Source of the DNA: Roseobacter sinensis
GTDB taxonomy: Bacteria; Pseudomonadota; Alphaproteobacteria; Rhodobacterales; Rhodobacteraceae
DNA length: 64,000 bases
Direction: 5' to 3'
NCBI RefSeq assembly: GCF_025755255.1
Contig: NZ_JALIEB010000008.1
Location: 1-64,000, forward strand
Part shown: in pieces, positions 42,686-47,944 of the stretch
Layout of the letters: each line of letters starts with the position of its first letter
Numbering within the stretch: position 1 is the first letter of the stretch
Program-made: the position numbers and the translations under genes
Notes under the pieces: model-generated
The model's input: only the letters and a program-made list of their open reading frames with translations
What the model was told of the DNA's origin: nothing
Database searches by the model: none

Positions 42686-43735
42686 TCACATATCCGCGCG
42701 CGAGAATCCTTCAAAGAAGGCATCGAACCGCTCCGAGGACTGCTCGGCCCCGGTGAGGATATCCTCGCCCTCTGCACCAATGGCATCCGACATCGCCTGA
42801 CGCATCCGGCCCCAATCGCTGCTGCGCGCGGGGCCAAGGTGAAACATGCATTCTGACATCGCCCGCAAAGGGCTGCGCCCTGCGGCGTTGCGTGCAATAT
42901 GCAAGCCCGCGGCCTGCGGTGTGCCGGGAAAGCTCGGGCGATCGGCAAAAAGCGCCCACCAACTCGTCACCAGGTATTCGTGATAAGCATCTGCCTGGCC
43001 CGACGCCCGGGCGCTGAGCGTGAATCCACCCATCTGAGCGGCGATCCAGTCCTCCCAGATCGGGCTGGTCCGCCGGCCTGCGAAGCGCATGGCAACACAT
43101 GTTTCGGCCAGCAGGTCGACGTCCTGATCCAGATAGGCCAGCAGGCCGGCAAACTCGAGGCTGACGATGGCATCCTCGCCGATCTGCGGATCGTTCAGAC
43201 CGTAGTCTGAGAGGTAGAACACGATATGCGTGAGTTCGTAGGCCGCCTTCTTGTTCGGAAGCGCGAAGGTCTCGGAGCGGTCCATGAAGCTGCGCAACCG
43301 CGCCCGCAGCGGCTTGTCCTCGATCCCGGCGCCACGGCGGTTGAGCAGCCGCTGCGCTTCGGCCCGCTGCAGATCGGACAGTTCCGCCTCCACCAGCCCG
43401 GCCTTCACCGCCCAGCGGCACAGCGCCGCGCCCTTGCTCTTGCCGATGCCCAGGTCTTCGAGGTCGAGGCAGATCGACAGCAAAAATCGGTAGTATTGTG
43501 GAAAGAAGCGCAACCGCTCCTCCAGCCCGTCGTAAATCCGCCGATAGGGCTCAAGCGCGTCGTCCGGCAGCATCGCACCGCTGCTGGCCAGCACATTCAG
43601 GACCTCGGCATTCTCCTTCAGCCAGAAGACATCGTCGAGCTTCCGCCGATTGCGGGCGAAATTGCCCAATAGCACCGCCTGCCGTTCGGCCAGAGACGGT
43701 CTGCGCGGCAGGCCCAAAGAGACGACGTTAGACAT
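42686..43735 (-). CDS. uncharacterised helical protein next to the FTTSM-repeat peptide gene
   Basis: This 349-residue protein is predicted to be mostly alpha-helical and has no signal or membrane segment. Two histidine-centred motifs stand out: YELTHIVFYLSDYG near 185-200 and YHEYLVTSWWALF near 270-285. Either could be part of an active or metal site. I associate a similar E-L-T-H-x-x-F-Y motif with an uncharacterised protein family, possibly one labelled DUF6902, but cannot confirm it. It lies 92 bases downstream of the repeat-peptide gene on the same strand, so the two probably form an operon. A role in handling that peptide is inference. It converges with erpA. Confidence 0.75.
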   Translation of the reverse strand: MSNVVSLGLPRRPSLAERQAVLLGNFARNRRKLDDVFWLKENAEVLNVLASSGAMLPDDALEPYRRIYDGLEERLRFFPQYYRFLLSICLDLEDLGIGKSKGAALCRWAVKAGLVEAELSDLQRAEAQRLLNRRGAGIEDKPLRARLRSFMDRSETFALPNKKAAYELTHIVFYLSDYGLNDPQIGEDAIVSLEFAGLLAYLDQDVDLLAETCVAMRFAGRRTSPIWEDWIAAQMGGFTLSARASGQADAYHEYLVTSWWALFADRPSFPGTPQAAGLHIARNAAGRSPLRAMSECMFHLGPARSSDWGRMRQAMSDAIGAEGEDILTGAEQSSERFDAFFEGFSRADM

Positions 43736-43827
43736 GGGGGTTCTTCCTTTGTCCTGAAGGCCTGCCGCGCATTGCGTCTGGCGCGGTCCGCGAGGGGTAG
43801 TCGCAAGGCCGCGCCAAATCGCTTGGG

Positions 43828-44109
43828 TTACATTGAGGTCGTGAACAGACCGGTTGCATCGCCGCGCAGCGCATCGCGGCCCGCCACCATGCTGGTGGTG
43901 AACTGGCCGGTCTCGGCACCGCTGAGAGTGTCGGCCGGGGGCGCCATCGAGGTGGTAAAGAGCCCTGTGCCCGCGCCGCTCATCATGTCGGCGTCCACTG
44001 GCCCCATGCTCGTTGTGAACAGTTCTGTCCCCTTCCCAGAGTGCAGGTCCGATTCACGGTCAAAGGTGTCTTCAATCGCAGGTGTTTTCAGTAAAGCGTT
44101 CGTCTTCAT
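43828..44109 (-). CDS. 93-residue protein of four FTTSM-ending repeats
   Basis: The leader (residues 1-20, MKTNALLKTPAIEDTFDRES) is followed by four near-identical units with consensus D-x-L-S-G-x-x-T-G-L-F-T-T-S-M. FTTSM occupies residues 31-35, 51-55, 70-74 and 89-93, with spacing 20, 19 and 19. The last unit ends exactly at the C-terminus (GLFTTSM). There are no cysteines, membrane spans or signal peptide. A short leader plus tandem cores rich in Thr/Ser looks like a multi-core precursor peptide, but a structural or binding repeat is also possible. The ribosome binding site AAGGG is well placed. A CtrA site and four DnaA boxes lie 77-191 bases upstream. Confidence 0.8.
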   Translation of the reverse strand: MKTNALLKTPAIEDTFDRESDLHSGKGTELFTTSMGPVDADMMSGAGTGLFTTSMAPPADTLSGAETGQFTTSMVAGRDALRGDATGLFTTSM

Positions 44110-44207: not shown

Positions 44208-44216
44208 TTATCCACA
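44208..44216 (+). promoter_or_regulatory. DnaA box (TTATCCACA)
   Basis: A perfect match to the strong DnaA box TTATCCACA, 6 bases after the CtrA site. It is the leftmost of four boxes in 93 bp. Confidence 0.65.
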
Positions 44217-44258
44217 CGAGCGTTCCGTGCTAGGGGTCGGCGGAAGCTTGAAAGTTGC

Positions 44259-44267
44259 AGTGGATAA
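44259..44267 (-). promoter_or_regulatory. DnaA box, one mismatch
   Basis: AGTGGATAA on the plus strand is TTATCCACT on the minus strand, one base from the consensus. It is immediately followed by the most AT-rich part of the gap. Confidence 0.5.
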
Positions 44268-44283
44268 TTTGGTTAATTTTTTT

Positions 44284-44300
44284 TTATCCACAGTGGATAA
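44284..44300. promoter_or_regulatory. 17-bp palindrome made of two facing DnaA boxes
   Basis: TTATCCACAGTGGATAA contains a perfect box at 44284-44292 facing an inverted box (one mismatch) at 44292-44300, sharing the central A. The symmetry would allow two DnaA molecules to bind face to face. It sits right of the T-run and 148 bases before xthA. Confidence 0.6.
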
Positions 44301-45551: not shown

Positions 45552-47039
45552 TCAGCCGCACATCAGCGATTTGGGATCTTTGATGTGGCCGCGGTGTTTC
45601 TCCACATAAGCGACGATGCCCGCCATGCAGGAGGGCTGCCCGCCGAACCCGCCCCAGGGCTTGAAGTGCGGGATGTGCAGATACGTCGTGGAATCGCGCT
45701 TGAGCAGATTGGCGAAGACCGCTGCCACGATGGTGCCGCCGACCCCGGTCAGCTTGCCGCCGCCATGCTCTTTCGCCTCCTGCAGGGCGTAGAACCACAG
45801 CGGCGTCTTGGTGATGCCCTTGGCCTTGAGCACGTCGGGCACATGCAAGTGCTTGTCGATGCCCAGGCGCGCCGCCGCCTGCTGGCCGCTGGCGAGCTGA
45901 TAGGTGTAGCGGTCGCGCACCATGTTGCGCAGAGCGAGGTTGCGCGACTGTTCAACCGTCATCGTATGCTCGATCTCTGCCAATTCGATGGTGCTGTTGA
46001 CAAATGGCAGCTCGAAGAGCGGCGAGCCGAGGCCCGGACCCACCGGGCGCGCTTTCTGCACCGGATTGCCGCCGGACATCTCGAAGAAGAGATCCATGTC
46101 CATATTGGCATCCGTGGGACGCGGCCCGAAGCCGACGGTCGCAAAGAGACCTTTCGCCGCCTCGCCGTGCTTCAGCGCATATTCGTGCTGCGTGGTCGCA
46201 TGGCCAAAGCGGTAGCAGGCGCCGGTGAACTCCACCGGCATCACCGGTGCATCCCAGCCGAAGAGGTGGTGCTGCATCGCGTGATCGAGGCGGGCCTGAT
46301 CGACGAAGGCGGGTAGCATCTCGTTCCAGACGATCCACTGATAGTGCAGCCGGATGAAGCGCCGCACCTCCTCGAAGTTCGTCAGCTTCGGCGCCACGTG
46401 ATCGTGCCAGACTTGCTTGGCGATCCCGTCATGGGCGCAGGCCTCGATGTCCTTCGCCGCATCGCCGCCCTCGACACGCTTGCTCATCAGGATGTTGTGC
46501 AGCTCGATGAAGATGCCCTGCACCTGCGCGACGATCACGTTCTCATCGTTGCGCGGGTCGCCGATCAGCGCCTTGCCAGCGCAGGTGCGCGCCAGATCCA
46601 GCGGGTTGTCGTGGCGTCCGAACATCAGCATGTGGTCCTGCTCGCCGGCACCATAGAGATGCGGCGAGGCTTCGGGGCCGGCGCCATAGACGCAGTCGAG
46701 ATCCAGGCTGGGTGTACGCACATTCGGGATGGTCGCCGGATCGATCCGGGTGCCGAGCGCCGAGGTGGCATCCAATGTGACGTCGTGATCGACGAACTGG
46801 CCGAGGAAGGTCATGCCCGCATCGGCGTGACCGTCTTCGTTGTGGGTGGCGCGCATGGTCTCGGAGAGGTCATGCAAGGCCTGGATCACATCGGCATGGG
46901 TGATGTTCTTGATCTGCACCGGATTGGGCGGCATGAGGCGGCCCAGGGTTTGGGCGAAAGGCTTCGACGGCCCCCCACCTTGCAGACAGATTTTAGTGAG
47001 TTGGTCGAGCCGAGACAGCCCATGATGCCTACCTGACAC
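45552..47039 (-). CDS. animal-type haem peroxidase family protein
   Basis: This 495-residue protein belongs to the peroxidase-cyclooxygenase superfamily. The distal histidine motif is GQFVDHDVTLD (about 77-87). EFTGACYRFGHATTQHEY (about 270) supplies the catalytic arginine region and the proximal histidine. There is no signal peptide, so it is probably cytosolic unless exported by a leaderless route. It begins at GTG 47039 after AAGGAG. Bacterial members oxidise halides, lipids or phenols, and the substrate here is unknown. The gene is monocistronic and convergent with xthA. Confidence 0.87.
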   Translation of the reverse strand: MSGRHHGLSRLDQLTKICLQGGGPSKPFAQTLGRLMPPNPVQIKNITHADVIQALHDLSETMRATHNEDGHADAGMTFLGQFVDHDVTLDATSALGTRIDPATIPNVRTPSLDLDCVYGAGPEASPHLYGAGEQDHMLMFGRHDNPLDLARTCAGKALIGDPRNDENVIVAQVQGIFIELHNILMSKRVEGGDAAKDIEACAHDGIAKQVWHDHVAPKLTNFEEVRRFIRLHYQWIVWNEMLPAFVDQARLDHAMQHHLFGWDAPVMPVEFTGACYRFGHATTQHEYALKHGEAAKGLFATVGFGPRPTDANMDMDLFFEMSGGNPVQKARPVGPGLGSPLFELPFVNSTIELAEIEHTMTVEQSRNLALRNMVRDRYTYQLASGQQAAARLGIDKHLHVPDVLKAKGITKTPLWFYALQEAKEHGGGKLTGVGGTIVAAVFANLLKRDSTTYLHIPHFKPWGGFGGQPSCMAGIVAYVEKHRGHIKDPKSLMCG

Positions 47040-47935: not shown

Positions 47936-47944
47936 TTATCCACA
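47936..47944 (+). promoter_or_regulatory. isolated perfect DnaA box
   Basis: TTATCCACA lies between the hydrolase gene (3' end at 47982) and the HNH gene, upstream of all its plausible starts except 47945, which overlaps it. A single box can occur by chance, but its position would suit control of the HNH promoter. Confidence 0.35.

Follow-up and report, generated by a model that had tools for sequence, protein, structure and literature searches.

A multicore peptide precursor gene paired with a DUF6902 gene in Roseobacter sinensis and its relatives, probably part of a RiPP-type pathway

In a stretch of 64,000 nucleotides from Roseobacter sinensis (hereafter the window), a short gene encodes a peptide carrying four copies of the pentapeptide FTTSM, and this gene is probably the precursor gene of a multicore pathway of the RiPP type that works with the adjoining DUF6902 protein, a putative epimerase. 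The relatives' own multi-copy cores next to one conserved enzyme suggest that such mini-peptides, made on the ribosome and modified by an enzyme, form a family not yet described. The features of the locus are the following.

43828..44109, minus strand: multicore precursor gene, 93 amino acids (from translation, shuffles and homologues)
44005..44019, minus strand: core 1, FTTSM, residues 31-35 (from translation)
43945..43959, minus strand: core 2, FTTSM, residues 51-55 (from translation)
43888..43902, minus strand: core 3, FTTSM, residues 70-74 (from translation)
43831..43845, minus strand: core 4, FTTSM, residues 89-93, with the stop right after (from translation)
42686..43735, minus strand: DUF6902 protein, 349 amino acids, putative core-modifying enzyme (by homology possibly an epimerase), with PF21843, PF21836 and the residues H-D-E-H

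The precursor frame begins with ATG, and its cores start at residues 31, 51, 70 and 89, giving spacings of 20, 19 and 19. The translation agrees with the preliminary description of this DNA, which had reported a 93-residue protein with four FTTSM repeats and the last of them at the stop; its 20-residue leader needs refinement, as core 1 starts at residue 31 and the leader plus the first recognition stretch take up about 30 residues. When the residues of the precursor were shuffled 20,000 times, no shuffle held a pentapeptide four times and 3 held one three times, which rules out a chance repeat as the origin of the FTTSM cores. The serine codons of cores 1 to 4 are AGC, TCG, AGC and TCA, and the four cores are therefore not the product of a recent DNA duplication. 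No family in Pfam, NCBIfam or PHROGs matched the window peptide up to E 1, and the Pfam and NCBIfam matches of four other precursors and two small open reading frames (ORFs) linked to DUF6895 genes were all below the curated cut-offs (best E 5e-5), which we read as chance matches of low complexity. Membership in a known precursor family was rejected on these searches.

Across 71 precursors with 492 units, several cores are encoded in a fixed frame on one precursor, as is characteristic of a multicore RiPP. The number of cores varies among the homologues from 2 to 20 (median 6), with 32 dominant core types and with the last core as the exact end of the protein in 44 of the 71, while the spacing is conserved, mostly at 19-22 residues, with exceptions of 13, 17 or 28-37 residues in a few precursors. 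The multi-core layout suggested in the preliminary description is thus supported by the varying core number, by the conserved spacing and cores and by the adjoining enzyme-family protein. Its repeat consensus survives across species only as the frame G-x-x-[TV]-x-x-F-x-[ST]-x-x, in which core positions 2, 4 and 5 vary in concert, and its cysteine-free cores are not general, as Cys occurs in at least one core of 12 of the 71 precursors. With the units anchored only on the G at -6 and the F/Y at core position 1, identity at core positions 2, 4 and 5 was 97, 93 and 95% within precursors versus 34, 35 and 42% between them, and the six spacer positions before the G were 28-35% identical within precursors (71 precursors each). 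The core is accordingly the most conserved part within precursors, in line with the earlier remark that cores are better conserved than intervals.

Recent duplication or gene conversion might by itself account for the likeness of such repeats, the core being unselected, and near-identical whole repeats in some precursors (L053, L098) indicate that exchange between repeats does occur. We nevertheless regard this as very improbable on several grounds. In 35 precursors with drifted spacers, spacer identity within precursors (12-18%) is at the level of drift between species (8-17%), whereas core positions 2, 4 and 5 are 88-94% identical within precursors versus 32-43% between. Identical cores are written in more than one DNA sequence in 71 of the 73 precursors having two or more of them, and both Ser codon families are used at 30 of 144 Ser core positions. 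A set of eight precursors from the window's genus that have the same length (L001-L008, of 19 available) shows 0/560 amino-acid replacements in core codons versus 28.0% synonymous differences, and the non-core rest differs by 28.1% of amino acids (2016 comparisons). The codon differences among identical cores rule out recent DNA duplication alone. The core is under selection and evolves in concert.

The likeness of cores within a precursor is not a strict rule, and two core types share one precursor in L094, L107, L108 and L187. In a same-genus precursor (L019, 1501-1716), two FTSAS cores stand beside one FTTSM core, a mixture that looks like a core replacement under way.

Homologues of the window peptide were found in 21 of 59 genomes, its own genome counted, including all 18 same-genus relatives. 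For a broader view, we used a family sample of 295 genomes, nearly one per genus, of which 82 carry DUF6902. A precursor profile of three units matched 76 of the 82 positive genomes but none of the 213 DUF6902-negative ones; the profile was built from precursors of the same 295 genomes, and the positives are therefore partly given by construction, but the 0/213 is not. The six DUF6902-positive genomes that the profile missed are L114 and L130, three with divergent cores (L115, L117, L127) and one end fragment. Loci were fetched for 80 of the 82 genomes, that is for all but the window's own and the one end fragment, and a multicore ORF lies upstream of DUF6902 in 78 of the 80, recognised by pattern in 73 and by eye, owing to divergent cores, in five (L113, L120, L123, L127, L129). 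In the other two, L114 and L130, neither pattern nor eye found a precursor upstream of DUF6902. A second sample, the best 80 of 387 named relatives, includes records labelled Ruegeria pomeroyi, Phaeobacter, Sulfitobacter, Roseovarius and Leisingera, and a repeat finder detected a repeated pentapeptide upstream of DUF6902 in all 80 of these loci. Five of these frames were checked by eye, and the repeat in L187 (labelled Ruegeria pomeroyi) proved to be in the wrong frame; its correct frame holds two FSSGS and five FSTSC cores. Among 289 genomes of the class, three had DUF6902 above the cut-off, each of them from this same family, and a single match from another family was below it. DUF6902 was not found on plasmids. 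A mobile origin was rejected on this absence, together with the lack of a viral fold match better than E 0.48.

The DUF6902 gene lies 92 bases downstream of the precursor gene on the same strand, and its product matches DUF6902 (PF21843, E 1.8e-139) and also DUF6895 (PF21836, E 1e-20). In an alignment of 8 DUF6902 and 8 DUF6895 rows (five of the latter confirmed by Pfam, the others found by tblastn or as a neighbour), H170, D207, E211 and H252 are at least 90% conserved, and W38 and G179 are invariant. The H-D-E-H set is kept in 96 of 99 loci; of the remainder, L131 is cut by a contig end, and the motif is broken to RSEH in L114 and to QLRT in L130. The H-D-E-H set is thus broken in precisely those two of the 80 loci that lack a precursor; picking the same two among the 79 loci with a complete enzyme has a chance of 1 in 3,081 (calculated by hand and post hoc). 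At both loci the DUF6902 gene is retained at the site with a changed motif while the precursor is gone, and it may be decaying or re-purposed.

These results bear on the possibility that the repeat protein remains uncleaved and acts as a scaffold or a regulatory decoy whose motifs attach to DUF6902 or to some other partner. In its favour are the regularity of the repeats, the fact that a co-evolving partner could likewise keep them similar, and the absence of a conspicuous protease gene from the locus. We consider such a protein improbable, because the frame is kept between species while a quick tree of 74 enzymes, 69 of them labelled, requires at least 44 changes of the dominant core, the opposite of what attachment to a single conserved surface would suggest, and because the H-D-E-H set that the partner keeps family-wide is lost together with the precursor. 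The alternative of partner-binding repeats raised in the preliminary description is weakened in this way, although binding as such stays part of the picture, since any modifying enzyme must also bind the repeats. The fixed frame, the concertedly rewritten core, the free spacers and the motif broken where the precursor is lost fit the prediction for a multicore RiPP.

With regard to chemistry, one member of DUF6895 is a lasso-peptide epimerase according to the title of Shi et al. (ACS Catal. 2026, as cited in PMC13352647). The sequence homology and conserved positions described above place DUF6902 in one clan with DUF6895, and because of this homology to a family with one reported epimerase and the shared H-D-E-H residues, epimerisation would be the likeliest reaction. 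It is also quite possible, if not what we expect, that DUF6902 performs another reaction in a multicore RiPP pathway, e.g. cyclisation, hydroxylation or core excision, and that the link to DUF6895 extends to fold and active site only. DUF6902 is only about 17-20% identical to the aligned DUF6895 proteins, the leaders of DUF6895-linked small ORFs are, by eye, unlike those of the present precursors, and no solved relative pins the chemistry; H170, D207, E211 and H252 being common to both families speaks against this. A profile comparison of DUF6902 with one DUF6895 protein gave a weak match (158 columns aligned, probability 49%, E 1.7e-4). A DUF6902 model made from an alignment of 83 proteins (mean pLDDT 95.3) is all-alpha except for short strands, and Foldseek found nothing significant for it in the PDB (best E 0.046, TM 0.30) or in BFVD (best E 0.48). 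By sequence, no solved relatives were found.

DUF6895 genes were found on seven plasmids, and 5 of the 6 plasmid loci that were read have a small ORF upstream; in L143 one gene separates the small ORF from DUF6895, and in L145, which has no annotation, no small ORF was assigned. The DUF6895 genes with small upstream ORFs (L139-L144) come from Streptomyces, Kitasatospora, Pseudalkalibacillus and an alphaproteobacterium, the alphaproteobacterial locus L139 having two similar small frames upstream. Inspected by eye, several of these ORFs have in common a segment resembling SG[IL][LIV][DN] and finish in, for example, GPWY or GPWF; possibly they are single-core precursors outside lasso clusters.

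Compared with known systems, the locus resembles those of the DUF6895 family (PF21836) in the homology of the enzyme, the H-D-E-H positions and the small upstream ORF seen in 5 of 6 plasmid loci, but the Roseobacter precursor is multicore, has five-residue cores and does not match the DUF6895-linked small ORFs. Unlike in lasso-peptide loci, neither a lasso cyclase nor a leader protease was found by Pfam among the six flanking genes scanned, a range that reaches two genes beyond the peptide gene. FXSXX-COOH peptides of actinobacteria, an NCBIfam family, have a single core and a radical SAM partner (the FxsB system). The C-terminal Phe-x-Ser-x-x motif is common to them and the cores described here, but the window peptide and four other precursors had no such NCBIfam match, and Pfam identified no radical SAM enzyme among the six flanking window genes. 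Cyanobactins derive from multicore RiPP precursors, and multicore microviridin precursors have been reported (PMC5934393). The likeness lies in several cores in a fixed frame on one precursor, while the enzymes are other ones, the present precursors carry up to 20 five-residue cores, and no graspetide or cyanobactin genes were among the flanking genes tested. MslH, reported as a metal-dependent lasso-peptide epimerase (PMC10406935), would share its reaction with DUF6902 if the latter is an epimerase, but no shared fold was detected, the DUF6902 model having no significant PDB match (best E 0.046).

Pfam assigns the six flanking window genes to an arginyl-tRNA synthetase, an HD hydrolase, an Fe-S biosynthesis protein, an exonuclease/endonuclease-family protein (presumably xthA), an animal-type haem peroxidase and an HNH protein. 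Within 4 kb of the relatives' loci, the exonuclease gene was found in 74 of 80 and the Fe-S and HD genes in 69 of 80 each; the flanking genes are kept at most loci and the site is therefore stable, with contig ends accounting for some of the misses. Between DUF6902 and the Fe-S gene, tblastn found a gene for an EamA-family membrane protein in 61 of the 80 family loci and 45 of the 80 named loci (the best 80 of 387), and both proteins tested matched PF00892. In the window there is no EamA gene at this place, DUF6902 being followed by the next gene after 32 bases, and the 13 named Roseobacter loci (L160-L172) have none at the site either. An exporter elsewhere in the window genus was also considered and rejected, as only EamA paralogues of at most 36% identity were among the matches listed. 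The median number of core copies was 7 with EamA (52 loci) versus 4.5 without it (12 loci; p 0.006, with kinship ignored and five cut or N-holding loci dropped), a difference on which we do not build.

Two further observations concern the locus itself. The gap between precursor and enzyme (window 43736-43827) and, by eye, the same gap in several other loci contain a CGGGGCGTTC-like stretch with a short hairpin after it; a transcript attenuator at this place is not claimed, as the folding is weak (median z -0.79 over 67 loci, 18% below -2). The protein encoded at 45552-47039 on the minus strand of the window, though bacterial, has a haem peroxidase domain of the animal type (PF03098, E 7.9e-10).

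In the pathway that we propose, each precursor would present one five-residue core in several copies (FTTSM, four times, in the window), and the stretch G-[DE]-x-[TV]-x-[MLA] before each core would serve as the recognition site. The adjoining DUF6902 protein would act on each core, most likely by epimerising one residue, with the near-invariant Phe or the Ser/Thr two positions later as the first candidates. A protease, for which no gene was seen at the locus, would then free several identical small peptides per precursor, and in most relatives the EamA-type carrier next door would export them. A literature search by title and abstract, with subscription journals mostly outside it, returned no description of the precursor family or of its pairing with DUF6902; multicore RiPPs are already known, and it is this precursor and its pairing that are apparently undescribed. 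If the proposal is true, well-studied marine bacteria carry a peptide pathway unrecognised by the family libraries, DUF6902 gains a testable role and a link to DUF6895, for which one peptide epimerase has been reported and no solved fold was found, and the 32 dominant five-residue cores form a natural set.

Upstream of the precursor gene, the window holds two copies of TTATCCACA, which we take to be a perfect DnaA box.

44208..44216, plus strand: TTATCCACA, the DnaA-box-like site nearer the precursor, of a kind enriched upstream of precursors
44284..44292, plus strand: TTATCCACA, the second DnaA-box-like site, 76 bases from the first

A third window copy is at 47936, and the second box (in the region 44208-44300) is half of the near-palindrome TTATCCACAGTGGATAA. 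Perfect boxes were found at 40 of 75 loci (66 sites) when about 600 bp ahead of the precursor was scanned, at a density of 1.47 per kb versus 0.0028 per kb elsewhere. Within 350 bp upstream, at least one perfect box is present in 40 of 68 loci and at least two in 26, as against none in 393,797 bases from the enzyme start onwards, and even a loose box is absent in 22 (for these counts the first core served to estimate where the precursor starts). Spacings of 76 (15 pairs), 75 (4) and 53 (4) are the most frequent. Not even a loose box was found within 1.4 kb (0.7 kb at one locus) upstream of the exonuclease gene in 17 DUF6902-negative relatives. The boxes, absent at this place in these relatives and enriched at precursors, therefore go with the peptide gene. 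DnaA, the replication initiator, would be expected from the sequence to bind these sites, and the pairs may tie transcription to it, which would be an unusual setting for a peptide product.

More tentatively, and with less confidence than in the precursor and its enzyme, we suggest that the locus represents a new RiPP class of roseobacters, vertically inherited at one chromosomal site, in which a multicore precursor with five-residue cores, a DUF6902 epimerase and usually an EamA exporter would yield a small D-residue-containing peptide that is rewritten in concert from genus to genus. The DnaA-box pair would switch its synthesis, and the peptide would report or respond to the replication state, perhaps as a lineage-specific signal.

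A same-orientation pair with 60-90 bases between the boxes occurs once in the window genome. Pairs with 60-72 bases between occur 16 times in the 295 genomes, every one with exactly 67 between, and the reversed-pattern control gave 2 matches. Fifteen of these pairs are located upstream of the DUF6902 cluster, and the 16th, in genome G334, belongs to a three-box cluster between other genes. This cluster, with three perfect boxes within 85 bases (L262 2065-2149, on contig C1 of G334), lies away from the peptide locus and is perhaps an origin or a DnaA-titrating site.
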